Translations under genes and position numbers: made by a program
In this document: positions 3,022-55,299 of the stretch, in pieces
Layout: each line of letters opens with the position of its first letter
Position numbering within the stretch: the stretch's first letter is position 1
NCBI GenBank assembly: GCA_900095095.1
Contig: FMBT01000416.1
Location: 60,471 to 124,470, forward strand
DNA from: Fragilariopsis cylindrus CCMP1102
Lineage: Eukaryota; Bacillariophyta; Bacillariophyceae; Bacillariales; Bacillariaceae
Direction of reading: 5' to 3'
Length of the DNA stretch: 64,000 bases
The notes under the pieces: generated by a model
What the model was told of the DNA's origin: nothing
What the model saw: only the letters and a program-made list of their open reading frames with translations
Databases searched by the model: none

Positions 3022-6000
3022 TTATATTTCCTCCGGTAACTGACTGGTATCGATAATTATTGTAGCTATTGCTGTAACTGTTACGAATCCTATTTCGCAA
3101 TCTGACACTGTTGTAGATGTGGTGTTTCCTCCGCTTACTTTTGCGGTCGCTGTTGCGGTCGCAGTTGCTGTCGCTGTTGCGCAAGCCATAAAGCCCGGTC
3201 CTGCGGTAGCTGTTGATGTGGCTGTTGCGATCGCTATGGCGAGCGCTACTCCGGCAATATTTCCGGTTGCTGTTGCTGTTGCTGTCGCTGTTGATGTTGC
3301 TGTTGCGGTCGCTATTAGGGAGACGGCTCGTACATTCGCTGTCCCTATCGCTGTTGCTGTTGCTACTTCATTCACTGATGAGGCAGAGGGTACTGTTGCG
3401 GTAGCAGTTGCGGTCGCTGTTATGAGAGATTGTGATGTAGATATCGATGTCGATTGGTCGATTTTTGTTTCGGTCACTGTAATTGTCGCTGTGTCGGCCC
3501 GGGGTCCCCAAGTCGGGACACCACTTGGCTCAGAACTTGGTTCTGAACTGGGTCCATCACTTGGAAGTGAGCTTAGACTTGGAAGTGAGCTTGGTTGTGA
3601 ACTGGGCATTAGACTTGGTTGTGAGCTCGGTTCTGAACTAGGAGTAGCACTTGGCAGTGAGCTCGGTTCTGAACTCGGAGTGGAACTTGGCAGTGCACTT
3701 GGTTCTGAGCTGGGCATTAGACTTGGAATTGAGCTTAGACTTGGAAGTGAGCTTGGTTGTGTACTGGGCATTAGACTTGGCAGTGAGCTCGGTTTTGAAC
3801 TAGGAGTAGCACTTGGAGATGGACTTGGTTCCACACTCGGGATGGAACTAGGACCAGAACTTGGTGAAAGACTAGGCATTAAGCTAGGACTGGAACTGGG
3901 AGAATTACTTGGGACAGTACTTGGCGCAGAACTAGGGGTAGCACTCGGTTCAAGACTTGGAGTGGAGCTAGGCATTGAGCTGGGTTCCAGACTAGGGAGA
4001 GAACTTGGTGCACCACTTGGATCAAGACTTGGGATGGAACTAGGTCCAGCACTTGGCAAAGAACTTGGTTCTAAACTAGGCAAGCTACTTGGTGCTTTAC
4101 TCGGAATTGAACTAGGAGCGGAACTAGGAGAAGCACTTGGAGATGCACTTGGCTCCACACTTGGGATGGAACTAGGACTAGAACTTGGTGAAAGACTAGG
4201 CATTAAGCTAGGACTGGAACTGGGAGAATTACTTGGGACAGTACTTGGCGCAGAACTAGGGGAAGCACTCGGTTCAAGACTTGGAGTGGAACTAGGCATT
4301 GAGCTGGGTTCCAGACTAGGGAAAGAACTTGGTGCAACACTTGGATCATGACTCGGGATAGAACTGGGTGCAGCACTTGGCAATAAACTTGGTTCCAAAC
4401 TGGGCAAGCTACTTGGTGAAAGACTGGGACCTGCGCTTGGGTCAAGACTTGGAGCAGAACTGGGGTCAAGACTTGGAGCAGAACTAGGACCATCACTTGG
4501 AAGACCGCTCGGATCAGAACTAGGACCACCACTTGGAACTACACTTGGAAGAGAACTGGGCAAATTACTTGGCTCCCCGCTTGGATTAGCACTCGGAATG
4601 ACACTCGGAATGGAACTTGGAATGGAGCTGGGTTCCAAACTAGGAACAGAACTCGGTGCACCACTCGGATCAGAGCTAGGTGAAAGACTAGGAACAGAAC
4701 TTGGTGAAAGACTGGGACCTGCGCTTGGGTCAAGACTTGGAGCAGAACTGGGGTCAAGACTTGGAGCAGAACTAGGACCACCACTTGGTAGACCGCTCGG
4801 ATCAGAACTAGGACCACCACTTGGAACTACACTTGGAAGAGAACTGGGCAAATTACTTGGCTCCCCGCTTGGATTAGCACTCGGAATGACACTAGGAATG
4901 GAACTTGGAATGGAGCTGGGTTCCAAACTAGGAACAGAACTCGGTGCACCACTCGGATCAGAGCTAGGTGAAAGACTAGGAACAGAACTTGGTGAAAGAC
5001 TGGGAGCTGCACTTGGGTCAAGACTTGGAACAGAACTCGGAAGAGAACTTGGTGAAAGACTGGGCCAAAAGCTCGGTCTGGAACTAGGAGCAGTACTTGG
5101 GCCAGCACTTGGGACAGAACTCGGTGCGCCGCTCGGATCCAGACTAGGAGTAATGCTGGGAATCATACTGGGCTCCGCACTTGGTATAGCGCTCGGTACA
5201 GAACTTGGGTGAGCACTTGGATCTGAACTGGGTAGAAGACTTGGTAGTGAGCTCGGTTCCAAACTGGGCAAAAGACTTGGGATTGTGCTTGGAATGGAAC
5301 TCGGTGCACCACTAGGATCAAGACTAGGAGCATGACTAGGAGTAGAGCTAGGCGCACCACTTGGAACAGCACTGGGCAATGAACTTGGGACAAAACTTGG
5401 GGTAAAACTAGGAGCAGCACTCGGCGAAATACTTGGAAGGGAACTGGGTGCAAGGCTGACCGTTGGGTCATCAGTTGCAGTAGGATTAGAACTAGGTGCA
5501 GCACTTGTGGTGGGTGCGTTACTAGTGCTCGGAACGGAACTGGGCATTGAGCTCGGTTCCGAACTAGGCTCAGCACTTGGAATCAAACTAGGCATAGCAC
5601 TCGGAACAGAACTGGGGACTTTACTCGGTTCTGAACTGGGCAAAAGACTTGGAAGGGAGCTGGGTTGTGAACTGGGCAGAACACTTGGTTCTTCACTTGG
5701 TTTAGCACTTGGAATGGAACTCGGATTAGCACTCGGTTCTGAACTTGGCAAAAGACTCGGAAGGGAACTGGGTTCCGAACTAGGTGCTGAACTTGGTGCG
5801 CCACTCGGATCCAAACTAGGAGAAGAGCTAGGTGCACCACTTGGTGTAAGACTTGGAATGGAACTTGGACCAGCACTTGGTGCAGAACTTGGCACAACAC
5901 TAGGCACATCACTTGGTGTAAGACTTGGAATGGAACTTGGTGCGCCACTCGGATCCAAACTAGGAGAAGTGCTGGGTGCACCACTTGGTGTAAGACTTGG

Positions 6001-7959
6001 AATGGAACTTGGACCAGCACTTGGTGCAGAACTTGGCACAACACTAGGCACATCACTTGGTGTAAGACTTGGAATGGAACTTGGTGCGCCACTCGGATCC
6101 AAACTAGGAGAAGTGCTGGGTGCACCACTTGGTGTAAGACTTGGAATGGAACTTGGACCAGCACTTGGTGCAGAACTTGGCACAACACTAGGCACATCAC
6201 TTGGTGTAAGACTTGGAATGGAACTTGGTGCGCCACTCGGATCCAAACTAGGAGAAGTGCTGGGTGCACCACTTGGTGTAAGACTTGGAATGGAACTTGG
6301 TGCGCCACTCGGATCCAAACTAGGAAAAGAGCTGGGTGCACCACTTGGAGTAAGACTTGGAATGGAACTTGGTGCGCCACTCGGATCCAAACTAGGAGAA
6401 GAGCTAGGTGCACCACTTGGGATTGAACTTGGTGCTGAACTTGGTGCGCCACTCGGATCCAAACTAGGGGAAGAGCTGGGTGCACCACTTGGAATGGAAC
6501 TTGGTGCGCCACTCGGATCCAAACTAGGAGAAGTGCTGGGTGCACCACTTGGTGTAAGACTTGGAATGGAACTTGGAATAGCACTTGGTGCAGAACTTGG
6601 CACATCACTCGGGATTGAACTTGGTGCTGAACTTGGTGCGCCACTCGGATCAGCACTTGGAATGGTACTTGGATTAGCGCTTGGAATGGAGCTGGGATTT
6701 AGACTTGGGAGAGAACTCGGTGCACCACTCGGATGAAGACTTTGAATAAAACTGGGTGCAGCGCTTGGCAAGAAACTTGGTTCCACACTTGGTAAACTGC
6801 TCGGAGACTCACTCGGCTCTGAACTAGGAATAGCGCTTGGAAAGAAACTTGGTTCTGCACTCGGTTTGAGACTAGGTGCGCCACTTGGAAATGAGCTAGG
6901 TATCGAACTGGGTAAAAGACTTGGAAATGAACTAGGTTCAGAACTGGGTAAAAGACTCGGAAGTGAGCTGGGTGCAGCGCTTGGTAACACACTTGGCTCC
7001 CCACTCGGAAAACGACTTGGGATGAAACTTGGTCCAGCACTCGGCGATGAACTTGGTTCCAAACTGGGCAAGCTGCTTGGTGACTCGCTTGGCTCCAAAC
7101 TAGGGACAGCACTTGGAGATAAACTTGGTTCTGTGCTCGGTATAGCACTTGGCACAGCACTAGGGAAAGCACTCGGATCGAGACTAGGAACAAAGCTAGG
7201 AAACGCACTAGGATCGACACTCGGTGCTTCGCTTGGGTCAACACTAGGAATAGAGGTTGGCGGTATCCTTGACTTCAAATCAAGACTAGGGGCATCAGTC
7301 GGTGCTGCACTTGGATCCGCACTAGGACCCGTACTTGGTACAAGGCTAGGGACAGCGCTCGGTTTGAGACTAGGAGTGGAGCTAGGCAAAGCACTCGGAT
7401 CATCACTTGGTGCTGTGCTTGGGTCCACACTAGGGGCAGCGCTCGGATGAAGACTTGGGACGGAACTGGGTGCAGCACTCGGCGTTAAAGTTGGTTCTAA
7501 ACTGGGCAAGCTGCTTGGCGATCCAGATGATAGACTCATTATAACAACAAAGGCAAGATCATTTGTATATAAACCAGATACTATATCTCCCATAACTATT
7601 TTACTTGCACCATCTACATTGCATGATCCACCATTACTAGTAATTCTAAATGTAACTTCATAACATGTTGTTACATCTATAGGAATAACCTCATCGCTGC
7701 GATATACATTACTACACTTTGTTGATCTTGGTATAATGATTTTCACAACACAATCTTTATAGGGATTGGATGGTATTGAACAATCATCAATACGTAGACA
7801 TGTTTTTGTTACCTTCATCAGAGCTTTTTTTAAATTCTTTCTTGGTAAAGTTCGGACCGGTGGACCAGCGAATCCAGTAATATCTACGAATCCTAATGTA
7901 TCAAATGGTGTAGGTGAATTAGTTGGACGTTTTGTTTTTGGACGTTTTGTTTTCCTCAT
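3022..7959 (-). CDS. Giant PSxxPS-repeat cell-surface protein, repeat and C-terminal part
   Basis: This open frame has 1645 codons. A short unique region at residues ~20-140 contains four or five Cys (TCLRIDDCSIP, DCVVKI, CSNVYRS, TCYEV, GSCNVDG) and looks like a small folded domain. About 1,270 residues of SxPSxxPS tetrapeptide-type repeats follow. The last ~200 residues are alternating Thr-Ala/Val (TATATATA) with a Ser/Thr-rich spacer. PSxx repeats are known from secreted, O-glycosylated diatom surface proteins; a wall or mucilage role here is inference. The first Met is probably not the true start. Reading upstream in this frame continues into Lys/Ser-rich sequence matching the neighbouring frame at 7956-9527, so the two are most likely one ~2,150-aa type II membrane or secreted protein broken by one missing base near 8075-8150. 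Confidence 0.75.
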   Translation of the reverse strand: MRKTKRPKTKRPTNSPTPFDTLGFVDITGFAGPPVRTLPRKNLKKALMKVTKTCLRIDDCSIPSNPYKDCVVKIIIPRSTKCSNVYRSDEVIPIDVTTCYEVTFRITSNGGSCNVDGASKIVMGDIVSGLYTNDLAFVVIMSLSSGSPSSLPSLEPTLTPSAAPSSVPSLHPSAAPSVDPSTAPSDDPSALPSSTPSLKPSAVPSLVPSTGPSADPSAAPTDAPSLDLKSRIPPTSIPSVDPSEAPSVDPSAFPSFVPSLDPSAFPSAVPSAIPSTEPSLSPSAVPSLEPSESPSSLPSLEPSSSPSAGPSFIPSRFPSGEPSVLPSAAPSSLPSLLPSSEPSSFPSLLPSSIPSSFPSGAPSLKPSAEPSFFPSAIPSSEPSESPSSLPSVEPSFLPSAAPSFIQSLHPSGAPSSLPSLNPSSIPSANPSTIPSADPSGAPSSAPSSIPSDVPSSAPSAIPSSIPSLTPSGAPSTSPSLDPSGAPSSIPSGAPSSSPSLDPSGAPSSAPSSIPSGAPSSSPSLDPSGAPSSIPSLTPSGAPSSFPSLDPSGAPSSIPSLTPSGAPSTSPSLDPSGAPSSIPSLTPSDVPSVVPSSAPSAGPSSIPSLTPSGAPSTSPSLDPSGAPSSIPSLTPSDVPSVVPSSAPSAGPSSIPSLTPSGAPSTSPSLDPSGAPSSIPSLTPSDVPSVVPSSAPSAGPSSIPSLTPSGAPSSSPSLDPSGAPSSAPSSEPSSLPSLLPSSEPSANPSSIPSAKPSEEPSVLPSSQPSSLPSLLPSSEPSKVPSSVPSAMPSLIPSAEPSSEPSSMPSSVPSTSNAPTTSAAPSSNPTATDDPTVSLAPSSLPSISPSAAPSFTPSFVPSSLPSAVPSGAPSSTPSHAPSLDPSGAPSSIPSTIPSLLPSLEPSSLPSLLPSSDPSAHPSSVPSAIPSAEPSMIPSITPSLDPSGAPSSVPSAGPSTAPSSRPSFWPSLSPSSLPSSVPSLDPSAAPSLSPSSVPSLSPSSDPSGAPSSVPSLEPSSIPSSIPSVIPSANPSGEPSNLPSSLPSVVPSGGPSSDPSGLPSGGPSSAPSLDPSSAPSLDPSAGPSLSPSSVPSLSPSSDPSGAPSSVPSLEPSSIPSSIPSVIPSANPSGEPSNLPSSLPSVVPSGGPSSDPSGLPSDGPSSAPSLDPSSAPSLDPSAGPSLSPSSLPSLEPSLLPSAAPSSIPSHDPSVAPSSFPSLEPSSMPSSTPSLEPSASPSSAPSTVPSNSPSSSPSLMPSLSPSSSPSSIPSVEPSASPSASPSSAPSSIPSKAPSSLPSLEPSSLPSAGPSSIPSLDPSGAPSSLPSLEPSSMPSSTPSLEPSATPSSAPSTVPSNSPSSSPSLMPSLSPSSGPSSIPSVEPSPSPSATPSSKPSSLPSLMPSTQPSSLPSLSSIPSLMPSSEPSALPSSTPSSEPSSLPSATPSSEPSSQPSLMPSSQPSSLPSLSSLPSDGPSSEPSSEPSGVPTWGPRADTATITVTETKIDQSTSISTSQSLITATATATATVPSASSVNEVATATAIGTANVRAVSLIATATATSTATATATATGNIAGVALAIAIATATSTATAGPGFMACATATATATATATAKVSGGNTTSTTVSDCEIGFVTVTAIATIIIDTSQLPEEI
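3850..4330 (-). repeat. 324-bp internal tandem duplication in the PSxxPS gene
   Basis: A distinctive block beginning actaggcattaagctagg occurs at 3871 and again at 4195, an offset of 324 bp. The offset is a multiple of three, so the frame is kept. Confidence 0.7.
4411..4986 (-). repeat. 288-bp internal tandem repeat in the PSxxPS gene, two copies
   Basis: The block containing ctgcgcttgggtcaag starts at 4431 and 4719, and the block caaattacttggctcc starts at 4561 and 4849. Both give a 288-bp period (96 aa). The copies are nearly identical at the DNA level, implying recent unequal exchange. Confidence 0.75.
5839..6300 (-). repeat. 144-bp internal tandem repeat in the PSxxPS gene, three copies
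   Basis: The block ggaccagcacttggtgcag recurs at 5867, 6011 and 6155, a strict 144-bp period (48 aa) with near-identical copies. This is the youngest-looking part of the repeat domain. Confidence 0.8.
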
Positions 7960-18707: not shown

Positions 18708-20449
18708 GTCTTTATTTTATATTTTATTTTATTTTTATTTTGGAATCTATCTGATCTTATTCCTCCTACAGTATCCTGGACTACTCCTCTATCTTGGAGG
18801 TTACATACAGTAAGTATAACTACCCTTCACATTATATTCTCTCCATAACAACTCTCCTCAAAAGTGAAGCAAGAGTGGTGACTGATGATGTTGTGGCATA
18901 TATAGAAAGTTAACCAATATTCTAACTATGACAGTGAGAATGAATGTAAAATTCAGGTATATATCTTCTGCTGTTATCATTATTTATCTTGAAAGGGTGT
19001 TACTTCAGTTCATCATGCTTATTCCTACTTCTCTTCCATTTTGCATACAGTAACCACTCATCATACACAAACTAAATGATCTTGCTCTAAATAAATAGAG
19101 TGATAACAAAGTTGAGGTTGTTGCATTGATTTGGCTGTGCTAGCTGCCTCTCTATGTGTGATTAGTTTGCAAAATTTGAGGAAGGACTGTTCAAATTATT
19201 GTGTCATTCCTATCTAAGTCAAATATCTCTTCATCATCACTTGTAAATAAAACATATTTCTTGCAGACTACAGACTGCTGCATCATGCATCATTAATTGT
19301 TGTGCCTTGTTGTAAAAAAATAGTGCAGATATATATAGACTTGACACTACTTACTTGAGGACATCATCAAACGTGAGAATACTTTGTTGTTAGCTAATTT
19401 GTTGCTGATAATTTGACAGTATTAGAAATATTATGTGTGCACTTTTTATTACTATTTGTACCTGATGCAACAACATGTTGGGTGTATGACCCCCCCAATA
19501 ATGTTTGGGTGAGAGGGTGAGGGATGTGTAATGGATGCAGAATCTGTTGTTGAAACTATTCAAACTGCTGTTCCATCACACTTTTTCTTTCTCAAACTAT
19601 ATTGTTTCATCAGACTTTTCTTTTCTTATTGCACAACTACAACCTTGTATCCAATTAGTGCAGAGAGGAAGAAGTAATTTTATTTAAATTGAAGACCTCA
19701 TGGACTTGTGTGTATGAGCTGATCTATTTGGATTGATTTATCCGGTGCATTTAGCTGTTAACCAAATCCAATTGATGGTCTATCCTGAAGAGACAATTGG
19801 ATAAGCAAATTCATTACTGCACTACTACCAAGCACTGTGTTTCCCCCTCTCCCCCCTTGTTCTTTGCTAATTCATCATCAGCAGCGCTGGTAATGGGAAT
19901 GTTGATCTCAGATGTGATATATTATAATAGCTAGCTACTAGCTAGGCATTCACCTAACTTGTAGAGAAATTGTATGCTATCATCTGTTTTCACAGGTGTA
20001 TATTTATCATTTTGGGTGTTACTGTTAGCAAAAACCACCACTCATACAACCAATATTTCTCAAATCGCCATTTTTTCAAGCTTATGAAGAAGGATTGTAT
20101 TTTTTGTGATTGTATTTTTTGTGATTGCAATCATCTATCAGTGTTACCTCCTACATGTCAATTCTTGATGTCTTATCCTAGTAGCATTGTTATGTGCTAC
20201 TGTTCAACTGGAGAGATAGATAATAGGCTAGAAGTAGTGTGTAATACTAGCTAGCCTAGCTAATACAAGACTAATATCCCTCATGAATCCCTTTAGCCCT
20301 CATTGGACCACCTTTTCAAGGGTTCAATCCCCAGCTACTTTTACTAGTTGTTTTACTAGTGTATATGCCAGTTCAGTCAAAATTTCCATCGCACGATTTT
20401 GAGAAGCTTGATGTTTTATATTATTTATTTAACATCAGTCACAGTCAAG
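18708..20449. other. Gene-free 1.7 kb
   Basis: No convincing frame. A lone box-B-like word (ggttcaatcccc, 20318) has no matching box A at tRNA spacing. The composition resembles the 11.4-13 kb and 24.6-26.4 kb gene-poor blocks. Confidence 0.4.
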
Positions 20450-20616
20450 GTGTGCGTGCGTAACGCGACGAGATTTTTTGTACGATTACAATTACCACCG
20501 GTACTCGAGTTACTAGTACGGACGAGAAAAACTTCCTAGACACTGGATGAATCACAGACAAGATTTGAGAACGTTCCTAACTACCAAGACACTGGATGAA
20601 TCCAATTGAGAATGTT
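20450..20616 (+). repeat. Left arm of a long inverted repeat bracketing two genes
   Basis: It begins GTGTGCGTGCGTAACGCGAC and includes ACCACCGGTACTCGAGTTAC and GGACGAGAAAAACTTCC. An internal near-repeat of acactggatgaatc follows. The same blocks, in the same order, are found inverted at 24472-24619. The arm ends 140 bp before the start codon of the next gene. Confidence 0.85.
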
Positions 20617-20755
20617 AGTACCGGTACTAAGGTCTACCTGAATTGTACGTCAAATGTAATTCACAAAAAAGTTATTTTATCAAATTTATGAAATAATTGA
20701 AGTACGAACACAAAGCATTCCTTATCCCCATAAAGATCAAAATCTTCACAATTCA

Positions 20756-22042
20756 ATGCTGCGAATCAACTTTAAAATGGATCCATCGATGCGTGACCGC
20801 GTCAGAGTGTCGAATACTTCAAAAACAACAACAACAACAACAACAATAACAAAATCTATGTCGAACGTTCTTTCTCCATCACAGAAATATTTTACTCTAT
20901 CTCCAACGGCAATCACTCATCTCCAAAATCCCGCACTTTACAAAGAGATTGTAGATGACGAGATGATCAAGCAGCTCCGTTATGATGATCATCTCACCCA
21001 TCCAAGTTCATATCCGAACACACCCACCAGTGCTTCCTCCGAGGTGTTGTTCAGATCCATCATCAATAATCCGATGCATCAAGAATTCATTAACATGATC
21101 AATTCAGTCAAGAAAGATGGAAATATGATATACATTGGTTTTACTGGACAAAACAACGTGGATGACGAAGCGTACCAATTTTTATATCGTCGGCATTGTT
21201 CCGATAAGTATGCTAACACCGGCCTTACTTTGTTAACGGATACGAAGAATCCACTTACTGCGTCGATTAGGGAAAAATATAAATCCACGGTGTATGTTCT
21301 TTTTTCTACATTTTCAAAACAAGCAGCCACCCATCTCGAATTGTGCATCCAACAAAATCTACAATCAATTATTCCGGGCCACATTCTCAATCGTGGTACA
21401 AGTACTATCAGTTATCAACATGCCAGCGTCGAGTACGACGTGTCTTCAAAAGTATACCGAGTTTATGTGACGGTATTGGAAGGAGTTCGTCACGCCATCG
21501 ACAAAGGACTTGTTACGTTCAATTATTGGAAGATGTCTGATACAAGTACGACTAATCAACTAGACGATGTGGAATCTACTATTAGGGAAGAGAACAAAAG
21601 GTTGAAGGAACGAATATGCACACTTGAAGAAGAAAACCGTATATTGAAACGGAATATCGGATACCGCATTCCGATGAGGGTTCGTACCGATACCAACAAC
21701 AGTCTCATTAGTATCTTGGTCGAGAAGAACCGCATCCGACCCCCCTACCCAGCAAACAGGGTACAAGATGTTCGAAGAAGCACAAGTCCAACGAGCTTCG
21801 ATCTTCAGTGGCAAAGCCGCTATCATGAGTTGAAAGAATACAACACACTAAACAAACATACAAATGTTCCTTTTGATTACACCAGGAACCCTCAACTTGG
21901 ACGATGGGTTGATACCCAACGGACACAATACAAGTTGTGGTTACGTGAAAAGAAAAGTCACATGACACCAGAACGAATCAAATTACTCAAAAAGATTGGT
22001 TTCAGATGGCGCATGAAAAGGGAAATCATTCCAATAGATTAA
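20756..22042 (+). CDS. Helicase-associated (HA) domain protein
   Basis: The frame encodes 428 aa. The N-terminal ~60 residues include a Thr run. A unique region (~100-260) contains NMIYIGFTGQ and RRHCSDKYANTG, faintly recalling GIY-YIG spacing but without enough conserved residues to claim it. A short coiled coil (IREENKRLKERICTLEEENR, ~275-305) follows. The C-terminus (~340-420) is one HA domain: WQSRYHELKEY, NVPFDYTRNPQLGRWVDTQR and LLKKIGFRW. HA domains are small three-helix modules common in diatom proteins and probably bind nucleic acid. It is convergent with the secreted-protein gene, and both lie inside the inverted repeat. Met8 is an alternative start. Confidence 0.75.
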   Translation: MLRINFKMDPSMRDRVRVSNTSKTTTTTTTITKSMSNVLSPSQKYFTLSPTAITHLQNPALYKEIVDDEMIKQLRYDDHLTHPSSYPNTPTSASSEVLFRSIINNPMHQEFINMINSVKKDGNMIYIGFTGQNNVDDEAYQFLYRRHCSDKYANTGLTLLTDTKNPLTASIREKYKSTVYVLFSTFSKQAATHLELCIQQNLQSIIPGHILNRGTSTISYQHASVEYDVSSKVYRVYVTVLEGVRHAIDKGLVTFNYWKMSDTSTTNQLDDVESTIREENKRLKERICTLEEENRILKRNIGYRIPMRVRTDTNNSLISILVEKNRIRPPYPANRVQDVRRSTSPTSFDLQWQSRYHELKEYNTLNKHTNVPFDYTRNPQLGRWVDTQRTQYKLWLREKKSHMTPERIKLLKKIGFRWRMKREIIPID

Positions 22043-22283
22043 TAATAGAATACATAATTTAAATAGATAGATTAAACAAAAAACAAAAAAACGTTTATTA
22101 ATACTGTGTAATCCATCTTACCTCGCTTAAGATTACTTTAAACGTGACTACAAGAACGACGAAAATCAGGAAGAAGGTACTACTTTTACCGCCTGCCGAC
22201 GCTTAGACTGTTCGTTTTGTGGTGTCCGACGAAACACAAATAGAAACAACGGACCGTGAACCTCCCGCATTACATTCTACTAC

Positions 22284-22470
22284 GATAACGATAACAATAA
22301 CAATAACAATAACAATAACGATCCGATATGGGTGTAAATGTGTAAATGTGTATGTATAAGTATGGATTAATATATATTAATATGCATTTGTATGTATCCG
22401 TATGTATTCGTTTGTATTCGTATGTATCCGTATGTATTTATATGTATCGATTATTTATATGTATCGATTG
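22284..22470. repeat. Simple repeats between convergent genes
   Basis: (ATAACA)n at 22284-22320 is followed by degenerate GTATGTATCC/GTATGTATTC units to about 22470. The array fills the gap between the two convergent 3' ends. Confidence 0.75.
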
Positions 22471-22482
22471 TTAAATAGTTGA

Positions 22483-23910
22483 TCAGTTTGTTGTGCTGTG
22501 CTCGACAGCGAACGCAGCCTCGTAGTATTCACTTGGTGTAAGATTTTCGATAGTAAAGTCCATTAAATGATAAAATGATGGATTACCGTAGCGAATCAGA
22601 TCATCGGCGGCAGCATCAGCAATATCACGTAGGCTGGCTTCCGAGAGGTACGAGGAGGCGTCTTTTTTTCCACCACTCATATCGATAGCTAATGCTTCGA
22701 CGACGACGGCAGCAGAAGCAGCATCGGCTCCACTACTACGGACACATTTGATTTTATCAATTGTTTGACCAGCATCAAAGATCCCATCCGTGGTCGTACC
22801 ATGAATGGCATTGAAGGCAGTATGAATGGCTGCACCAAAATCGAATAAATCAGCAGTATGCCAGACACCACATTGACTACGATTTCGTTGTGGCATCTCA
22901 ATACCATTTAAAGTGATTTTGAGAAATCCTGTTCCCACAATTCCATCGGCGGCCTTGATCTTGTTACTTGTTTCTTGATTGCCATAAAAGTACGGAAGAG
23001 AAACGGCGGCAGAAGAATCGGACGATTCGGAATCGGAAGATTCGGCGGGGAGGATGTCTTCTTCTTCTTCTTCTTCTGCTTCTTCGGATGTAGTATCATT
23101 GTTGTCGTCGACTGTTGCTGTGGAAGCGGCAGCGGCAGTATCCGAATTAGTAGTAGTAACAATAGTAGTAAGAGCAGTAGTGTAATCCGTTTCACTCAAC
23201 ATGAAAATATCACACATCTTGGCATGTTGGAACCGTTTGTTTCCACTTGAATCTTTCAAGAAGCGACAGAATTCATCCGCCACGGCATCCAAATTGGATT
23301 CCTCATAGACGTAGTCGGATGCTTCTTGTTCCTTGTTCGTGTTCGTGTTACTACCAAGAAGTAGTTGAAGAAGGGACGTTTCAGTTGCATCTGCATTATC
23401 CTCCATCATAGTAGCATCATCATCTCGACACATATTACATCGTCCACTCATATCCACATGAAGATAAATATCCCATTTATTATAATATCTGGACTTTTTG
23501 GGCGCCCAACGTGGTTGTCGTCGACGTCGTCGTCGAGCAGTAATCATATTATCCGAAGACGACGCGTTGACATTATTGATGCCATCAATTTGTTCACCAC
23601 TTAAGTACAAACCATCACGATCACCATGGATGGTATCAAAGGCTTGTTGGAAGGCATAATTGAAATCAGCACGATCTTCTAAGGAGAGATCGTCCATTGG
23701 AACATCCACGATATCAATTACCAGAAAGGAAGAGACGGTCACGATCTCATCATTACCTTGTAGAGAAGCTTGAGAAGAGGAAAGATCATGATGTCCACCA
23801 CGAAGATGAATAGACGACGATGATGATGTACCAACGGTAGTAGTGGCAGTGGCAGCGGCACCCACAAAGATTGAGGTGAAAAGGAGAGAGGATGCAGAAG
23901 AGAGCTTCAT
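22483..23910 (-). CDS. Secreted protein with two copies of an undescribed module
   Basis: The frame encodes 475 aa with a good signal peptide (MKLSSASSLLFTSIFVGAAA). Two related modules follow. Each has a motif of the form AFxxIHGxxxDGxxxxGxxID (~90-110 with HGDRDGLYLSGEQID; ~362-385 with HGTTTDGIFDAGQTID). Each then has a strand with VDMSG or IDMSG, and a helical end with A(V/A)(D)(E/A)..CRF/LIRYG and (L)(S/T)xS(E)(T/Y)xxA. A Thr/Asp/Glu-rich linker (~245-300) joins the modules. I recognise no family. The internal duplication strengthens the case for a real folded domain. The ATG is well placed for the signal peptide. Confidence 0.75.
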   Translation of the reverse strand: MKLSSASSLLFTSIFVGAAATATTTVGTSSSSSIHLRGGHHDLSSSQASLQGNDEIVTVSSFLVIDIVDVPMDDLSLEDRADFNYAFQQAFDTIHGDRDGLYLSGEQIDGINNVNASSSDNMITARRRRRRQPRWAPKKSRYYNKWDIYLHVDMSGRCNMCRDDDATMMEDNADATETSLLQLLLGSNTNTNKEQEASDYVYEESNLDAVADEFCRFLKDSSGNKRFQHAKMCDIFMLSETDYTTALTTIVTTTNSDTAAAASTATVDDNNDTTSEEAEEEEEEDILPAESSDSESSDSSAAVSLPYFYGNQETSNKIKAADGIVGTGFLKITLNGIEMPQRNRSQCGVWHTADLFDFGAAIHTAFNAIHGTTTDGIFDAGQTIDKIKCVRSSGADAASAAVVVEALAIDMSGGKKDASSYLSEASLRDIADAAADDLIRYGNPSFYHLMDFTIENLTPSEYYEAAFAVEHSTTN

Positions 23911-24471
23911 GGTTGGATGTTGTTGTTGTTTGTTGTTGTTGATGATAATGGTCGAGAAGAGGTGTAGCGTAGTAGTGCTGGCTTATTTGTTGTTGTATTT
24001 GCGTTTTTACTGGATCGAAATTTAAAATTATGAGATTGACGAAAGGAAAGATTGATGAGGAAAAGCTGAGTTGTGTCGCAGCACTCTTTCGTGGTTTTGA
24101 TCTTGCCACTCGTTATTGTCGTGTTATTCATTTCCGCTGTTGAATTTCTACTGGATGATTCATTCATTCCGTGCAACAATTTCCCTTTCAATTCCTTCAT
24201 GCATGATTCTCACAGACATTGCAAGATTGAAATAAATCGGGATTAGAATGACACGTGACGCAGACTTTTTATTTAAATTCTTATATTGCTTGTGCATAGA
24301 AACGCCAATGCGATGCATCTCACGGACAAACAAACTTGAAAAAAAACTTCCTAGTTAATTGTTTTGTCGTAAGTAGAATTTGTACTGATTCCTCTCGTTT
24401 TCAATATATTCAATGACCACATACGCACGGTTCTATTCTATTTGAGTTAACTGATTATTATTATTTTAACG

Positions 24472-24619
24472 AACGTTCTCAGTCATTGGATTCAAAGTGT
24501 CTTGGTAGTGTAACGTTCTCATCCAGTGTCTTGGAAGTTTTTCTCGTCCCTACTATAGTAACTCGAGTACCGGTGGTAGTGCATACATAAATCTCGTCGC
24601 GTTACGTACGCACGCACAC
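24472..24619 (-). repeat. Right arm of the long inverted repeat
   Basis: Read on the minus strand it gives GTGTGCGTGCGTACGTAACG, ACCACCGGTACTCGAGTTAC and GGACGAGAAAAACTTCC, then acactggatgagaacg. It matches the left arm with a few small indels. It lies ~560 bp upstream of the minus-strand secreted-protein start. Between 23911 and 24472 nothing else was seen. Confidence 0.85.
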
Positions 24620-25846
24620 CACCACTCCTATTTCCTCTGGAACACTGCATAGAGTAGATTCAGACCGTACGTAGAGAGACTACTGTATTTATACAACCAG
24701 TACAGTACAGTAGTTACCGGTATGCAGAAAGGGATGCTTCTCAAAAAAAAATTAAAGTGTGATGATGATGTGTCCAATTTTCAATTTTCAAAAATTGATT
24801 CATTGCTTGCTTTACTCACTGACTGATGCATTGATTGATTCACGCGTTCCTTTCATTATATCCTTTCTAACGCATTCTCTCTCTATTTCCAATCGTGCAA
24901 AGGAACTTTAAATTACGTTTGCTCTCGACAAAATTGGTGGTGAAACACGAATTGATTGACCGAGGACTTCATCGACTCACTCTTCTGAAACTCGATTGAT
25001 TCATTCCACGACTGAGGATCTTTTTTGTGTGTGTGGATTGTTGCTTGTACATTGTAGTGCTACAATAAATGATGCTGCTCCTGCTGCTGCTCCTGCTGCT
25101 GGAGGGGTCAGTAGTGATGGTGTATAGCATTTATTTGTCTTTTGTCTGCCAGTTGCGTATCAGAGTAAGCGCATTTTTCTTCTTTTGCTCCATTGTCTAC
25201 ATCATGCCTGCATGCTGCAGAAGGTGTGTGTGTGCGTGGATGGTTGATAGAGATAGTTTAATCTTAGTGGGGACTGAAAAGACCCAGTTTTTGAGCTCAA
25301 CCTTTGAATACAAACCCATAGTTTAATTCCAATTTGCTGCTGAAGGAATCCATAGATCCCTGTCACATAAAGGCACCATAAGTACTCTGTTGTTCTTCAT
25401 AGAGTACTCCATTGCTCATTTCTTTTAGTACTGTAAATTTTCTGTAAATTTTGGAACCATGATATCCAGCCACTCCAACCCCACATGGCTGACTCTCAAA
25501 TGCTGCTCCCTACTTTACATAAAAATGAATTTGGTGCAAAACTAGAAAACAAACAAACACACAGACAGACACACATGACATATACATACTGCAAGAGGTG
25601 GTGGAATATTTTATTCAACCATGATATGGTATCATGTTGTGAAGAGTCAACTCAATAAAAATTCTTGCATGTCAATATTAATTGGTGGTATATGCAAGAT
25701 AACTTGACTGGACTCAAGTAAATCACTCAACTCCAAGACCAATCTTTTCATTTTGTTTTGCTAGCTGTTGCTGCTATGTCTGTTGCTATATCTATTGCTA
25801 TACCTGTTTCTATACCTACCTGTTGCTATGTCTGCAATGCAGGCAA
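24620..25846. other. Gene-free
   Basis: Only short frames without recognisable features (for example 25069-25326, hydrophobic). Simple CTG and gttgctat-type repeats occur at 25069-25100 and 25765-25835. Confidence 0.4.
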
Positions 25847-29382: not shown

Positions 29383-30313
29383 GGTAGGTAAATTATTGTG
29401 CGTTTAGTGTGTAGGATATAGGTAGATAGGCAGGTAGGCAGGTAGGTAGATAGGTAGTTAACTAAATATCAACGATGTAGTATGTAACAGCTTTCTTCAC
29501 TTTGTTTATCTCCCGTTTGTGTAGTCTTCTTTAATTTCGCCAAATGGTTATGCTTTCTTAGACTATTAGTAGTAGTTGCCACAGCAATTCATTCAATGAT
29601 CAGAGAGTAGCTTCAATGTACGGTATCGTACTTCTGACGAAAGAGAACGTAAGGCGTTGTTGTTTGATTGAAAAGTAAGAGAGTAATGGTGTGTTGACCT
29701 CTCCTTCATCTCAACGGGTCATGCTTTACAATTTTTGTCACATCTTCTGTTATATCTTTCTCGAACCGATATGTACTCACCTTTTTGGATGCTCCATAGC
29801 AAAACACAAAACACTAATCAACTGAAATATTTTGTGAGTAGTAATATTATCTGCTCGGCTAACTTTTACTAACGCGCACTACTTTGAAGTCGTACTTTAA
29901 GCGTGCACGTATATTTAGGGGAGAGGTAATATCTTACAATCCCCCCTTTAATGCTGTCAAGAAGTAAGTACAATCCGTATCTCCGTCCGCGAACGCGCAA
30001 AGATCTCACACATTTACTTAGCTACTTATGGTACTGTACGAATTTTAGATGTTCTTTGTGCTTTTTGAAAAGAATGCAATTGTATACTCTAAATACCGAT
30101 GTCGATGTCACTGAATTTGCACTTGCAATCGCATTATGCTACTGTACTTTTTATTTTCCAATCGCCATTCGGTAAGTTAACGTAACGACAACACTTGCCT
30201 TCTGAAGCTTGGTCTATTCATTCATTGATTAGGATACGTAAAAGCGTCATCTGTATATTTGACACGCAATAACGCAGAGATATCTTCATTATTCATTGTT
30301 TTGATTTTTCAGT
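29383..30313. other. Divergent promoter region between LRR 2 and the ABC transporter
   Basis: A TAGG/CAGG repeat (29412-29458) sits in the probable 5' UTR of LRR 2. No gene is seen. Both neighbours are transcribed outward from this 930-bp interval. Confidence 0.5.
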
Positions 30314-36278: not shown

Positions 36279-39008
36279 ATGGAGGACGACGGTAATCATA
36301 CCAAGAAACACAAACGCAAACACGATGACAACGACGATGATGATGACAATGACGATGGAAGAACCATGGCCAACAACAACAACGACAACAACACCAACGT
36401 AATACAAGACCAACAACAAATGATTCAACACGCTATGCATTATGCTCGAGAATTGCAATCGGAAAAGGACGAGCTAGAACAACGATTGCGTGTCGCAGAG
36501 GACACTTGTGCGACCTTCGCAAGGGAACTTCAAGCAACTAATATGGAATTAGGGGCGTTGAAACAAGACCTCGATGAAGCAGAGCAGATTGAACTGCAAA
36601 ATGAAGAGTTAGAAAGCCGTTTGCGCGAGATGTCAGAGAAGATGGCAGATCTCGGAAAGTTACAGGAAAATGCAAATGCAAATAAAAGAATGGCATCGGC
36701 ATCGTCATCATCGTCTGCACCTACACTTAACGCTAACACTAGCAATACTCCATGGAATCGTTTAGTGAAAAAAGTAGGAGGAGGAGGAGGAGGAGGAGAT
36801 ACTAATGATACACAATATTTATTATGGTTAGAAGATGCAGATATAGATGCGGAGGAATATAATACTATATCGGCTATTGATCGTAGAACTTTACGTAGTC
36901 AATTTGAAAAGGAACATTATAATAATAATAAAAAGAAGAGGAAGACTACGAATACTATTACTAGTACTTCTAATACTGCTAGTACTAATACAAATTATTC
37001 TACTGCCATCAACAACAGCGGCAACGGGTACAACAGCAACAACGGTAACTCATCTACTAACACAAATACAAATCCGATTAATAAAAGTAGTAGTAGTAGT
37101 AATAATAGTGGTGGTAGTGGTAATAACAGAGCTAATACTGCTGCAAATGGAAAAGAAAAAGAGAAGGGAAAGAATAGCACGAAGAAAAAGAAGAGAATAA
37201 TTATTACGGGCCCAAATAATGAAAACAAACAGTCGTCGTCGTCATTTGGGCGTGTCGCAGCTGCTGCAGCAAAAAAGAAAGATGAAGGGACAAAAAATTC
37301 AAGTAATAGTAGGATGATTCCTCAGGAGAAGGTCAAAGTTGGGAATAAGAACGATAAGAAGAACAATGATCATAGTAACAATAGCATCAGCAACAACAAT
37401 GGTGACGGTGTGTATTCAAAAAACGACAGGATGGGCGATAACTTAAATTATGCGTCCGAACCCGGCATAGCTGGGAAGGATGACGATGACGCTGATGATG
37501 ACAATGACAATGCCAATGACGACGACAATGACGACGACAATGACGACGACAATGACGACGACAATGACAATGACAATGAAAGTAAACCACCGGCTAAAAA
37601 GAAGATGAGACGCCATCTATCAAAAAACGATATTATAAGGAAGAAGAAGGAGGATTGCGTATACGATGCAAATAATGCAACACATGCTAAAGCTAACGAT
37701 AACTGCAACAACAAAGATAGCACCAACAACAGCAATAACGGAGGTGATGATGGAGAAGGATATGAATCAGGGACGGAAGGTGACGGTGTGTATTCAAAAA
37801 ACGACAGGATGGGCGATAACTTAAATTATGCGTCCGAACCCGGCATAGCTGGGAAGGATGACGATGACGCTGATGATGACAATGACAATGCCAATGACGA
37901 CGACAATGACGACGACAATGACGACGACAATGACGACGACAATGACAATGACAATGAAAGTAAACCACCGGCTAAAAAGAAGATGAGACGCCATCTATCA
38001 AAAAACGATATTATAAGGAAGAAGAAGGAGGATTGCGTATACGATGCAAATAATGCAACACATGCTAAAGCTAACGATAACTGCAACAACAAAGATAGCA
38101 CCAACAACAGCAATAACGGAGGTGATGATGGAGAAGGATATGAATCAGGGACGGAAGGTAACTGTTCCTTGGTATTACCTTTTCCTGCAGCAACAGATAG
38201 ACGGCGGGGTGTCCGTAAAAATCCCTCCACGAATCCCGTGGGAGGTATTGATGATAATGATGATAATGTTGATGCGTATGAGGATGATGGTGACATTGAT
38301 TACAACAAAGATTCTGATGACGATGATGACAACGATGCTGTATCGTCCACAAATTCAAAAAAAGGAAAAGCTACATCGGGAAGATGCACATCGTTCTATG
38401 ATAGAAGCTGGGACAAACATTTCCAATGTCTTGTTGCCTATAGAAAGGAATACGATTCTACTACTGTACCTTTCGTGTATAAAGTAAATGGTCTAAATCT
38501 TGGAAGGTGGGTTAATCGTCAACGGATAAATTTTAAGAACAACGAACTTTCCAAAGAGCGGATCAATCATCTTGAATCAATTGGTTTTGTTTGGGACTCG
38601 CATGATGCGAAATGGATGGAAATGTATAAGTTACTCGTTGCGTACAAAAAACGGCACACGTCTACCAATGTGCCTAGCAAGTACAAAAAAGTTCCAAAAC
38701 TTGGATCATGGGTTCTTGCTCAAAGGCAGCTCTACAGGAACAATGAACTTTCCGAAGAGCAGATCAATCATCTTGAATCAATTGGTTTTATTTGGAATGT
38801 ATTTGATGCAAAATGGACAGCGACGTATCATATACTGGTGGAATACAAGAAGCAACATAAAGGTTCAACGACAGTACCAACACGATACACGAAAGACCCT
38901 TCTCTTGGGAAATGGGTCTATAAACAAAGATGTGACTACAACAAAGGTAATTTGTCGGAAAAGCGCTTGAAACTTCTGAATGCAATCAATTTTGTTTGGT
39001 CAGCGTAG
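36279..39008 (+). CDS. Nuclear-type protein with three C-terminal helicase-associated domains and a 126-aa tandem duplication
   Basis: The frame encodes 909 aa. The start has basic KKHKRKH and acidic runs. A coiled coil occupies ~48-130 (SEKDELEQRLRVAEDTC, then NEELESRLREMSEKM). A long Asn/Ser/Lys-rich region follows. Two identical 126-aa units (~375-500, ~501-626) each hold Asp/Asn repeats and a basic KPPAKKKMRRHLSKNDIIRK block that could act as a nuclear localisation signal. Three HA domains end the protein (~706-770, ~775-838, ~842-905), each of the form W..Y..LV.YKK.H...VP..Y...P.LG.WV..QR..Y...LS..R...L..I.FVW. Binding to nucleic acid is inferred from the domain. Confidence 0.8.
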   Translation: MEDDGNHTKKHKRKHDDNDDDDDNDDGRTMANNNNDNNTNVIQDQQQMIQHAMHYARELQSEKDELEQRLRVAEDTCATFARELQATNMELGALKQDLDEAEQIELQNEELESRLREMSEKMADLGKLQENANANKRMASASSSSSAPTLNANTSNTPWNRLVKKVGGGGGGGDTNDTQYLLWLEDADIDAEEYNTISAIDRRTLRSQFEKEHYNNNKKKRKTTNTITSTSNTASTNTNYSTAINNSGNGYNSNNGNSSTNTNTNPINKSSSSSNNSGGSGNNRANTAANGKEKEKGKNSTKKKKRIIITGPNNENKQSSSSFGRVAAAAAKKKDEGTKNSSNSRMIPQEKVKVGNKNDKKNNDHSNNSISNNNGDGVYSKNDRMGDNLNYASEPGIAGKDDDDADDDNDNANDDDNDDDNDDDNDDDNDNDNESKPPAKKKMRRHLSKNDIIRKKKEDCVYDANNATHAKANDNCNNKDSTNNSNNGGDDGEGYESGTEGDGVYSKNDRMGDNLNYASEPGIAGKDDDDADDDNDNANDDDNDDDNDDDNDDDNDNDNESKPPAKKKMRRHLSKNDIIRKKKEDCVYDANNATHAKANDNCNNKDSTNNSNNGGDDGEGYESGTEGNCSLVLPFPAATDRRRGVRKNPSTNPVGGIDDNDDNVDAYEDDGDIDYNKDSDDDDDNDAVSSTNSKKGKATSGRCTSFYDRSWDKHFQCLVAYRKEYDSTTVPFVYKVNGLNLGRWVNRQRINFKNNELSKERINHLESIGFVWDSHDAKWMEMYKLLVAYKKRHTSTNVPSKYKKVPKLGSWVLAQRQLYRNNELSEEQINHLESIGFIWNVFDAKWTATYHILVEYKKQHKGSTTVPTRYTKDPSLGKWVYKQRCDYNKGNLSEKRLKLLNAINFVWSA
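37401..38156 (+). repeat. Perfect 378-bp tandem duplication, two copies
   Basis: Unit 1 is 37401-37778 and unit 2 is 37779-38156. Both start ggtgacggtgtgtattc. Reading the two side by side I find no difference, including in the internal GACGACAAT microsatellite. The unit is 126 codons, so the frame is kept. Confidence 0.9.
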
Positions 39009-40460: not shown

Positions 40461-41042
40461 ATCCCATTCAACTAAAAAAAACGACATCTCTTTTCCCACG
40501 AAAACATAATTATGACCTAGTTTATTTATCGAGAAGATCATACTATATTTAAATGTCTTCTATCCTTAGATGCTGACCCATCTGTCTCAAACGTTTCATC
40601 ACTAAAAGACACTCTTGCTTCATCAACGTCTTCATCAGGTGCTACGTGATAGGAAGGTATTTGTAGGATTCTTGGTTGTTCGAATGAATGAATCGAATGA
40701 ATCGAATCGTGTTTGCAAAAATTGATTGAATAAATTTAATTTCCCTCCTGAAAAAATTGAGCGAGAAAAGAAGAAAGGATCATCACCTCCCCCCGCAATA
40801 AAATTGAACGATCTGTTGATTTGTTGTTCAAATTTCTTATGCCCCTTTCGCGTCTCTCATATTATGTCTACTTATTTTCGCTGAAGATCACAAAATTTGT
40901 GAAGAGGAGGCAAGAAGGCATGATGCATTAAAAGAGTTCATGACATATTATATTGTCTGCTACCACTGGCTTGTAAAAGTCGATACTATATAGGACTGTT
41001 GCATGCAACGGAGTAGCGATAACGATAACGATAACGAGGACG
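40461..41042. other. Upstream region of the Cys-rich protein; no gene
   Basis: AT-rich; gaatgaatcgaatgaatcg repeats occur near 40680-40705. Confidence 0.4.
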
Positions 41043-42200
41043 ATGAGAAGTAGAAGTAGAAGTAGATTATGGCGGGTTATCCTCCTTCTGCTCTTCAGTG
41101 GAACCACGATAATAATGATGATGTCGACCCCTGCAACTGCAACTGCCCTAAGGAATAAAATTATATTTTCCGACGATAATGATGCTGTGTCATCTAGGTT
41201 AGATTCAGTCGAAAACAACAACAACAGCGTCGTCGTCGTTAATAATAGTAATGGAATCGGAGAATCATCAGCATCAGCATCAACCAATACCAACAATACC
41301 AATAAGAATAAGAATAACGATAATAATAACGATAACAACGATGATGATGATGATTGTTGTACACTTGAAATTATTACTGGTGAAACTATCACATTCCAAA
41401 GAGGTGAATCCTATGGGACATATTTACCAACTCGTTGTAATCAACCCGATGATTTTCCATGTTATTGTAATCCAGATTTATATAATCAACTGGAATGTCC
41501 CTATTGTGGTTTTAGTATTACAGGGGATGATGACAACGATACATTATTACTATGTGCAAGGCATCAAGAAACTGTCTCATTTTTCGTTCCTAATAATAAT
41601 ATGGGGGATGTGGAAACATGTTCCTGTTATATCCCTACTGATCTTACAGCGAATCCAATTAAATATTGTGCCGTCACAAATTCATTACTACCCGTTGACG
41701 ATAATACTAATAATGACAACATCCTACCGCCATCAGACGACGGAGAAGGAGGGGGGTCGTCAGGCGGCGGCAGCAGCGAATGCGTAGTAACTGATACAAA
41801 AACAGGTCATATTATTATTGTTCCGGATGGTGAATCATTTGAAGAGTATGAGGTAATCATTGAAGGAGGACTTTGTGGTAATTCCAATGAATGGCCTGCC
41901 TATTGCAATGCAGATGCAGATGCAGATACAGATTCAAATGCAGAAGCAGACTCTGTTTCATTAAATGTACAAGTAGTCGATACTACTGCTACTAGTACTA
42001 CTAGTTCTACTGTCGTTGCTGTTGCAGTCCCTGATAATAATAGTAGTAGTAGTAGTAGTAGTAGTAACCAGCAGCAACAGCAACTACAGCGACCACGGCC
42101 ACGGCAACAACAACAAAAACAACAACCAAAAAAAGAAGAACAACGTGAACAAAATAGTTCCGATGGTAGTACTAGTAGTACTAGTATCGTCGTGAACATC

Positions 42201-42236
<36 letters not shown>

Positions 42237-42773
42237 ATTGAATATCCATATTGTATCTACACTGATACATTTTCTGGTACACCAACATGTGCAAAAAGTA
42301 ATCGTTATGTTGTCTATAGAAACGAGGACGGACAACATATACAATGTTCCTGTTTGTATTTAAGTGAAGAATTAGGTGGTCCTCAATCCACATGTGCGCC
42401 GTACTTAGTATTGGATAGTAGTAGTGGTGGTGGGGATAGTGGTACTGGAGAAATCGAAGAAGAAGTAGAGGATAATGATGATAATAACAATGACAATGAT
42501 AATGATAATGAGAATGATCCAAATTTGAACACGCCATCACAACAACAACAACAACAACAACAACAACAGCCGTCATCACCATCTGTCACTCCTGCTCAAC
42601 GTCCATCGAACTCCCCTGTTGTGGTGGTGACTATGCCATCGAATCCTTCTACAAGACCACCAACACTTCCTACTGCTGCTGAAAGTGGGACGACGAGGAA
42701 TTATGCCGTCTTAAGCATGATAATAAGTACGACAATAGTATCGATAGTAGCAGGACAATACATCCTTCTATAA
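41043..42773 (+). CDS. Secreted or GPI-type protein with two Cys-rich modules
   Basis: The frame encodes 576 aa. An Arg-rich start and hydrophobic core (VILLLLFSGTTIIMMM) form a signal peptide. Two modules share a pattern. Module 1 (~103-235): G(E/D)SYGTY, TRCNQPDDFPCYCNP, CPYCGF, LLLCAR, ETCSCYIP and YC. Module 2 (~247-465): DGESFEEY, GLCGNSNEWPAYCNA, a long Ser/Gln/Asn insertion, YPYCIYT, PTCAKS, IQCSCLYLS and STC. The C-terminus has a Pro/Ser/Thr stalk and a final hydrophobic tail (YAVLSMIISTTIVSIVAGQY) with only ILL after it, which is typical of GPI-anchor signals. A two-module Cys-rich surface protein is well supported; its role is unknown. Confidence 0.78.
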
Positions 42774-43046
42774 AATCTAGCTAACTAGCAGTAAATGAGG
42801 TGATAAATTAAGTGAAACTAAGTAATTCATGATGTCTTTGTATTAAGTAGTTTTTTTAGTCGATATAATTATTTTTAAATTAGTGTATTCCCTATTAGCA
42901 GTTTCGTATTTTTCAGTAATAATGCAAGATGCTCTATCTGTACATATTATTGTTCATTTCTTGTGGAATTGTGTGGAATTGTGTGGTTGTTGTTGTTGTT
43001 GGTGGTGATGAATTGCAACTGCAATCGCTTGCTTCCTGCTTTAGCT
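42774..43046. other. Gap between convergent genes
   Basis: 3' flanks only; a TTG-rich run lies at about 42985-43000. Confidence 0.4.
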
Positions 43047-43939
43047 TTAGCTGGATGCAGTGAAATGTTGAATGATACCCATACCATCCGTCAATTCTTG
43101 TGCCATGAAACCAGTCGCGGCTAACATCGCCAGACGACCATTTTGTAATTCTTTCGTTTGCATAATTCGAAATTCTTCCTCATCAGTTGGTTTTAATCCC
43201 AATGGATCAAACCCAATATCACCCGGAATATAATCCGACCGTAAGAGTCCGGGTTGATCCACTGGGACTTGTTCCGGTGGTACCCATCCCACAGTGGCAC
43301 GGTATTGTTCCGCAGCACCGATTGCAATGGTTAAGATAAGCCAAAATCCAACACTATTTATTGATCGATGAATAGTTATGAGAATGATGATGGAAGGGAA
43401 TGGAGCAAGAAAAATTAAATTAGACAATTGAATCATTCCTTGGTCGACACGCAAATTACATTCATTATTTATTATACATTGTAGTGGTATTTCACGACGT
43501 TACAAAACATACAACGTCCCGACACAACAACAAATTAAATTAAATCAAATAGACTTTAGATTTCTACTTACGGTACTTGTGCTAAGTGAGTGATAGCAGG
43601 ACCAGTGATTTGACTATCGAACAGGAAGGAGGATCCTTCGACTTGTTCTCCGACCAGGAATCCCACAACGGCCAGCATCGCCACACGTCCATGAGTTAAT
43701 TCCGCTTCACGGTATCTCTTTAAGGTATTATCATCGGCCTTTTCCGCAAATCCTAATGGATCAAATAATCCCACTGGATCTAGTGCACCGACCATATCAT
43801 CAATGGATGCGGCACTGAGGGCAGTAGTGACAGTGACAGTGACAGCAGCAGAGTTGCTGTTGCGTTGACTGACAGGTGCGAAAGCAGTGGTAGAACCGAG
43901 AAGGGCAAGAAGAGTAGTGGTGGTGGCGACGGATTTCAT
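43047..43939 (-). CDS. LHCX: LHCX-type fucoxanthin chlorophyll a/c-binding protein
   Basis: Exon 1 is 43939-43572 and exon 2 is 43353-43047. A 218-nt intron (gtaagt...aatag) restores AQVPVGFW and gives 224 aa. The presequence ends in GSTTAFAP, the diatom plastid motif, cleaved before F. The mature protein has three membrane helices. Helices 1 and 3 carry the conserved pigment-binding [11 protein letters not shown] and [11 protein letters not shown] motifs. [17 protein letters not shown] and [11 protein letters not shown] are hallmarks of the LHCX (LI818-like) clade rather than Lhcf or Lhcr. LHCX proteins sit in the thylakoid and support photoprotective energy quenching under light stress. The orthologue number within LHCX cannot be fixed from one gene. 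Confidence 0.95.
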
Positions 43940-44980: not shown

Positions 44981-45340
44981 ATGGCCGCCGAAACAGTTGT
45001 TACAAAGGAAGAATCACCAAAGAAAAGTATGCTGGGAAGTATTGGATTTGGTGGTAAGGAAGGAAAACCGAAAAAAGAGAAGAAGGTCAAGGAAAAGAAA
45101 GTCAAGAAGAACGCTGCTGGTGGTGATGATGATGATGATAACGATGATAGTTCCGTGTGCAGTACTACCAGTAATGGTGATAAGAATTGGTTAGGCCTTG
45201 AAAAGAAAAAACCACGTGCGGAATATCAAGCGGAGATTGATGAATTACGATTAAAACTAGTGGCAGTGGAAGATGAACTTGCCACCAAGACGACTCAATT
45301 GGATCGATTCATGAATTGGGCACGTCAAATGCCTAGATAA
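44981..45340 (+). CDS. Small charged protein with C-terminal coiled coil
   Basis: The frame encodes 119 aa. The start context caaaATGGCC is favourable. A Lys-rich segment (KKEKKVKEKKVKKN, ~31-45) is followed by an Asp/Asn run and Ser/Cys spacer. NWLGLEKKKPRAEY leads into a short coiled coil, EIDELRLKLVAVEDELATKT (~84-104), and the end reads DRFMNWARQMPR. No family is recognised, but the non-repetitive C-terminus and clean start make a real gene likely. It is divergent from LHCX. Confidence 0.65.
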   Translation: MAAETVVTKEESPKKSMLGSIGFGGKEGKPKKEKKVKEKKVKKNAAGGDDDDDNDDSSVCSTTSNGDKNWLGLEKKKPRAEYQAEIDELRLKLVAVEDELATKTTQLDRFMNWARQMPR

Positions 45341-47131: not shown

Positions 47132-47324
47132 CAAAAAAAGATTGAAATTACATCGAAGTAATGTCAAGATCGCCCCTAGTTGAAGAGAGAAAAAAAAATG
47201 TAACACTTTCTATAAGGCATTAAGGACGTAGAATCTAGATAGTATTCAATTAGACTCTATTAGTAGTAACATCTTATTATTACAATTATTTTATAACGCA
47301 ACGCTACGTAAAATATTGTTTTTA

Positions 47325-55256: not shown

Positions 55257-55299
55257 ATTATTACTATTATAATTATGATTGTTGGTGTTGTTCTTATCG

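Follow-up and report, generated by a model that had tools for sequence, protein, structure and literature searches.

A duplicated promoter-like segment in front of a chimeric HA-domain gene in one version of a Fragilariopsis cylindrus locus

Background

How did the same sequence come to stand in front of two different genes? The question is raised by a 64,000-nucleotide stretch of the diatom Fragilariopsis cylindrus CCMP1102 (NCBI GenBank assembly GCA_900095095.1, contig FMBT01000416.1, positions 60,471 to 124,470 of the forward strand; hereafter the window), in which a gene with an HA (helicase associated) domain and a secreted-type gene are transcribed towards each other between the arms of an inverted repeat. 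A prediction made from the sequence alone offered two answers, a 4.2-kb mobile unit with the arms as its ends or a promoter module shared by two genes. We find that the locus is better described as a duplicated promoter segment before a chimeric gene, in one version of the locus only. All positions are those of the window unless preceded by a short label such as C337, which stands for another contig of the same assembly.

Chimeric genes formed by chromosomal rearrangement are a source of new gene material and may segregate in some haplotypes only. A literature search gave nothing joining diatom, chimeric genes and template switching, nothing on DUF6824 with diatom, and only unrelated material on helicase associated domain with diatom. 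Among the matches listed there was nothing of use on heat shock factor motifs with diatom and nothing relevant on promoter capture or swapping.

Results

Inverted arms and convergent genes

A blastn comparison within the window gave the two arms as an inverted, collinear repeat with 74.6% identity over 173 columns (E 1.2e-27). The best blocks are 37 nt at 95%, 25 nt at 96% and 23 nt at 100%, with shorter ones besides, and they are interrupted by gaps of at most 18 nt. The local score of 168 is well above the maximum of 34 in 1000 dinucleotide shuffles, so that the predicted inverted repeat at both ends is borne out. The arms and the two genes between them are the following, with the basis in brackets.

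20449..20619, plus strand: left arm, a duplicated promoter-like segment (alignments, shuffles)
24469..24620, minus strand: right arm, the same segment as the left, also found in the other version of the locus at C337:27621-27778 (alignments, shuffles, genome search)
20756..22042, plus strand: chimeric HA-domain gene, an intact open reading frame (ORF) of 428 codons (ORF list, Pfam, alignment to C80)
22483..23910, minus strand: secreted-type two-module gene of 475 amino acids, with an 87% identical protein on C337 and a probable distant relative in the secreted gene of C278 (ORF list, protein searches)

These two genes are the two long ORFs between the arms, as had been predicted; the other ORFs of at least 80 amino acids measure 86-107 amino acids and mostly overlap the two. 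Each gene was also said to have the same upstream sequence in the same orientation. Both arms do lie upstream, but at unequal distances: the left arm ends 137 bp before the start codon of the HA gene, whereas 559 bp separate the right arm from the start codon of the secreted gene. The mutual distances of the left arm, the right arm and the arm on C337 are about equal. The choice of aligner matters here, as mismatch between arms is 12-14% with MAFFT and 6-8% with a gappier pairwise setting.

The other version of the locus

The genome searched comprises 67,884,144 bases in 818 contigs, and the arm search scores only the best candidates (here 3 of 3). Each arm finds the same three places, which are the left arm, the right arm and the segment on C337. 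A search with the 23-mer core of the arms, allowing up to 3 mismatches, finds only these places as well (reversed control 0). A dispersed repeat family as the origin of the arms was rejected on these two results. The same genome search gave no further arm pairs about 4 kb apart, since two of the three places are those in the window and the third is allelic.

C337 was compared through its first 78 kb (of 194.9 kb), and only alignments longer than 80 columns were kept. Positions 2-57411 of the window align to C337:1-49491 with gaps between blocks, the main blocks being 81-96% identical. We read C337 as the other haplotype of the locus, with a segmental duplication as the alternative. F. cylindrus is described as diploid, with strongly diverged haplotype contigs lying side by side in one assembly (PMC5634323), and the two versions of the locus resemble such haplotypes. 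C337 keeps the LRR gene, the right arm and the secreted gene in the order of the window, and it is without the left arm and the HA gene, which fall within one segment.

19340..22349, no strand: segment in the window's version only, where C337 has 184 unrelated bp (29980-30163) instead (alignment to C337)

The breakpoints of this difference (19339/22350) do not coincide with the arms. No convincing terminal repeats were found at the ends of the segment; 19280-22420 holds five inverted pairs, 70-86% complementary, none of them at the ends. The original prediction had noted neither a transposase nor a clear target-site duplication, and neither was seen here: no transposase was recognised by eye among the ORFs listed, the small ORFs not having been searched against families, and no target-site duplication was seen at the 3-kb segment, which replaces unrelated sequence, the outer ends of the arms being judged by eye only. 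For 19330-20455 the only matches elsewhere in the genome were to a dispersed repeat of about 60-70 bp, and no source of 22102-22349 was found in the genome search, in which simple repeats were skipped.

The dispersed repeat lies at 20316-20388, just before the left arm, and has dispersed and clustered copies on C328, C79, C714, C44, C49 and others. Two further features of the alignment to C337 were observed. At 40830-57411 the match to C337:1-17182 is opposite in orientation to the rest, which suggests an inversion of about 14-16 kb near 40-57 kb, and a long, internally repetitive stretch at 3507-7521 aligns to C337 in many registers.

Composition of the HA gene

The domain of the HA gene, foreseen in the original prediction, is confirmed by Pfam (PF03457, E 6.5e-18, 65.2 bits against a curated cut-off of 28.4), but its chimeric make-up could not be seen from the window alone. 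Alignments within the genome give good support to a patchwork, in which the coding part would derive from a C80-type source and both flanks from a C278-type source; the two sets of matches are to separate places in the same genome. The coding part aligns to C80 at 91% (20759-22009 to 315387-314126) and at 93% (21849-22039 to 314061-313871), with two HA repeats in the C80 gene and one in the gene of the window. No further copy of the chimera was found in the genome search. The flanks and joins are as follows.

20615..20630, no strand: 16-bp palindrome TTAGTACCGGTACTAA where the left arm meets C278-like sequence (window self-alignment)
20624..20756, plus strand: C278-like upstream and 5' untranslated region (UTR) segment, 85% identical to C278:27708-27577 (genome search, alignment)
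20714..20729, plus strand: 16-mer found exactly in the C80 HA gene, with a 12-mer inside it also in C278 (sequence match)
22023..22101, plus strand: C278-like 3' segment, 82% identical to C278:26165-26082; the segment opens with 16 nt AAATCATTCCAATAGA that C80 has as well (3' switch point; alignment)

On C278 the gene between these flanks is another one; its protein begins with a signal-peptide-like stretch and has GxCNxCxDDD motifs, and one intron is inferred for it. The 5' join in the window lies at CACAATTCAA / CTGCGAATCAA, and the start codon arises across it; about 30 nt further upstream there is a shared 12-mer that is not in register. The 16 nt of the 3' switch point are common to the window, C80 and C278, which would fit template switching, and the stop codon then lies on the C278-like side. 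Furthermore, AGCATTCCTTATCCCC inside the C278-like 5' part is common to the window and C80, as is GAATACATAATTTAA in the 3' region of C80. This sharing points to descent of the C80 copy from a gene of the same build as that of the window, a direction that we infer.

The HA gene on C80 is chimeric itself. Its upstream region and first codons match C230 over 499 columns at 89%, the inner 392 columns at 96%, and on C230 the match continues into a protein with a DUF6824 (E 6.3e-20) and an NF-YA domain (E 1.2e-8), for which a hand-spliced N-terminal part was scanned. The C80 gene thus consists of a C230-type promoter and first codons before the HA coding sequence, so that this coding sequence is joined to two different promoters. 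Over 20759-21848, 68 of 1073 aligned bases differ between the window and C80, giving 13 synonymous and 49 non-synonymous codon differences in 356 codons and a ratio of non-synonymous to synonymous rates (dN/dS) of 0.89. In the HA part 13 of 191 bases differ, and no synonymous change was counted.

Fragments resembling the start of the C230 DUF6824 gene were also observed at C459:317952-318057 and C354:271820-271882. HA domains are common in this genome, with at least 150 (150 scored of 583 candidates, all over the cut-off), and a 909-amino-acid ORF at 36279-39008 has at least two more, at about 38400-38789. Introns and gene content show the genome to be eukaryotic, and the abundance of HA domains, DUF6824 and the diverged haplotypes would be in keeping with a diatom.

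The secreted-type genes

A Pfam scan of the right-hand secreted-type gene (22483-23910) gave no match over the cut-off. Protein searches with it found no members beyond itself and the C337 version, and those with the C278 gene found only itself. The two proteins have module order and motifs in common. In a single comparison of small alignments, hhalign gave a probability of 86% (E 4.6e-6), and 82% (9.9e-6) in the reverse direction; blastp with the C278 protein gave 0.001 against the window protein and 7e-6 against the C337 protein. The C278 and right-hand secreted proteins are probably related.

The 5' UTR and signal-peptide region of the C278 gene also has a 76% identical counterpart (L045, C89:679118-679259). 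The protein that follows there seems to be another one, without a Pfam match at E 0.01, and the case is possibly one of leader-sequence shuffling.

A paired element in the arms

Each arm carries the motif TGAGAAYGTT twice.

20566..20616, plus strand: spaced TGAGAAYGTT pair in the left arm (motif scan)
24472..24521, minus strand: spaced TGAGAAYGTT pair in the right arm (motif scan)

These 4 sites are the only ones in the window, for which shuffles give a mean of 0.54 and none of 100 reaches 4. A set of 212 kb, made up of the window and stretches of C278, C80, C75, C680 and C337, holds 14 sites. Thirteen of these are in sense upstream of linked genes (HA gene 2, right-hand gene 2, its C337 version 2, C278 gene 6, C80 HA gene 1), and the remaining one is at C80:324221. 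The six sites of C278 belong to tandem units that extend to about 1 kb upstream of the gene.

Genome-wide, the exact pair with a spacing of 12-42 nt has seven matches, all at linked loci and in sense (reversed control 0). They fall at five promoters: one match each in the left arm, in the right arm, on C337 and before the C230 gene, and three in tandem before the C278 gene. The pair is thus found at the promoters of these genes and is rare elsewhere, the motif having been chosen after looking. C278 and C80 had been found via other homology before the motif was considered. The upstream region of the C278 secreted gene was also seen to contain tandem units of about 281 bp (C278:27921-28522, L030/L031), each with a TGAGAATGTT pair.

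The dyad GAANNTTC, which we take to be the core of a heat-shock element, occurs in four of the five promoters examined (HA gene of the window, right-hand gene, C80 and C230, not C278), the background frequency being 0.22 per kb. Since the dyad overlaps the TGAGAAYGTT motif it is not independent evidence, and we treat the possible heat-shock-element link as a lead only.

Discussion

We consider it probable that the promoter-like segment was duplicated, and the chimeric HA gene formed, by copying from several templates or by ectopic conversion, and that the shared pair would drive both genes. The arm would be the promoter segment of the right-hand secreted gene, the right copy being the one that the two versions share. 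The left copy sits in the 3-kb segment of one version and is followed by the C278-type 5' segment, the HA coding sequence and the C278-type 3' segment. Such a patchwork could result from ectopic conversion, or from copying that switched between several templates where they share short homologies; either way an inverted copy of the arm, the C278-type flanks and the HA coding sequence would have been placed beside the right-hand gene in one haplotype. The HA coding sequence would thereby have been put behind a promoter with a spaced TGAGAAYGTT pair, a case of promoter capture. Both convergent genes would then be driven by a factor that binds the pair and is perhaps HSF-like, and co-regulation is plausible since both have the same paired element. 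The mismatch of the arms, the flanks, the HA part and the two versions overlaps at roughly 5-14%, depending on the aligner, so the pieces may be of similar age.

The collinear arms around two convergent genes would also suit a 4.2-kb transposon-like unit, in which the arms are terminal inverted repeats and the two genes are cargo. We regard this as highly improbable. The empty site that such a unit predicts is not what C337 offers, as it lacks the left arm and the HA gene only and holds the right arm and the secreted gene alone. A DNA transposon was rejected because its boundaries are not at the arms, no dispersed copies or pairs were among the best candidates scored and no target-site duplication was seen; nor was a transposase recognised among the ORFs inspected by eye. 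A more serious alternative is that an old convergent pair of related secreted genes stood at this place, that one coding part was overwritten with HA sequence via ectopic gene conversion, and that the result was later lost in the C337 version. The C278-type flanks on either side of the HA coding part would fit the overwriting of a C278-type gene that was once there, and the hhalign result points to a distant relationship between the C278 and right-hand genes. Against it, the promoters are unrelated outside the arms, so that a plain inverted duplication of a whole gene is not seen, and divergence between the C278 protein and the right-hand one greatly exceeds that between the arms. On balance we find this history unlikely.

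The prediction of a shared promoter module fares better in part: both arms have the pair in sense, and genome-wide it is found only at linked promoters, but the right arm is no more conserved than its flanks. This last result, and a rate of about 1-2% at which one 10-mer is shared under the null, speak for the arms being a small duplication without a regulatory role and the motif pair a coincidence helped by tandem duplication. All seven exact pairs in the genome are at loci tied by sequence homology to this gene, and always in sense, which counts against this reading; we consider it unlikely. More speculative, and in our view quite unlikely, is that relocation of the HA coding sequence, at least twice (to the arm plus C278-type promoter and to the C230-type promoter, all carrying the otherwise almost absent TGAGAAYGTT), was steered by membership of one small co-regulated and perhaps physically co-localised set of genes, or that TGAGAAYGTT itself promotes exchanges.

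Several results weigh against the origin and the regulatory role that we favour. A search for conservation of the right arm beyond that of its flanks, made by comparing the two versions, found none (12% of aligned columns differ in the arm, 7-12% in the flanks), a result that argues against a strong regulatory role or at best gives it no backing. Beyond the arms, the left and right promoters have no sequence relationship to each other, nor has the right one to the promoter of C278. Two bases at the 5' join match neither source, so this is no clean microhomology switch. The C80 HA gene has a single motif and not a pair. The motif is a post hoc choice. When three random segments of matching lengths are drawn 3000 times, some such 10-mer is common to them in 50 draws, or in 24 once simple repeats are excluded, and pairs of motifs arise easily through tandem duplication. 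It is therefore the genome-wide restriction to these loci that carries weight, and even there C230 was found via the motif pair and only afterwards tied in by its identity with the C80 promoter. Finally, relative to the intact ORF of the window the C80 copy is frameshifted by 1 base, and the comparison of the two HA copies gives no indication of purifying selection (dN/dS over 20759-21848, base counts for the HA part); because of both, the HA gene may be decaying.

The proposed origin has likenesses to known systems. As with chimeric genes formed by chromosomal rearrangement, for which a Drosophila yakuba study (PMC6776367) is an example, new gene material would have been made by rearrangement and is seen in one version of the locus only. 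Unlike those chimeric genes, the present one brackets the coding sequence of one gene with the 5' and 3' flanks of a different one, and ahead of it stands a promoter segment of the neighbouring gene, duplicated and inverted. Template switching of the microhomology-mediated break-induced replication (MMBIR) type gives discontinuous duplications, some of them inverted, with short homology at the joins, and the locus would resemble this in part, with shared sequence at its 3' join. In the published account the shared sequences measure 2-5 bp, whereas one switch here shares 16 nt, and unlike the events described there the present one is old and known through its product only.

If the proposed origin is true, the locus would be a clear example of a new gene observed in a single haplotype, with an intact coding sequence inside the flanks of another gene and a duplicated promoter block ahead of it. 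The 10-base paired element, restricted to this set of genes, would then define a small, testable regulon. As HA domains are very numerous in this genome, how their coding parts acquire promoters would be of general use there.

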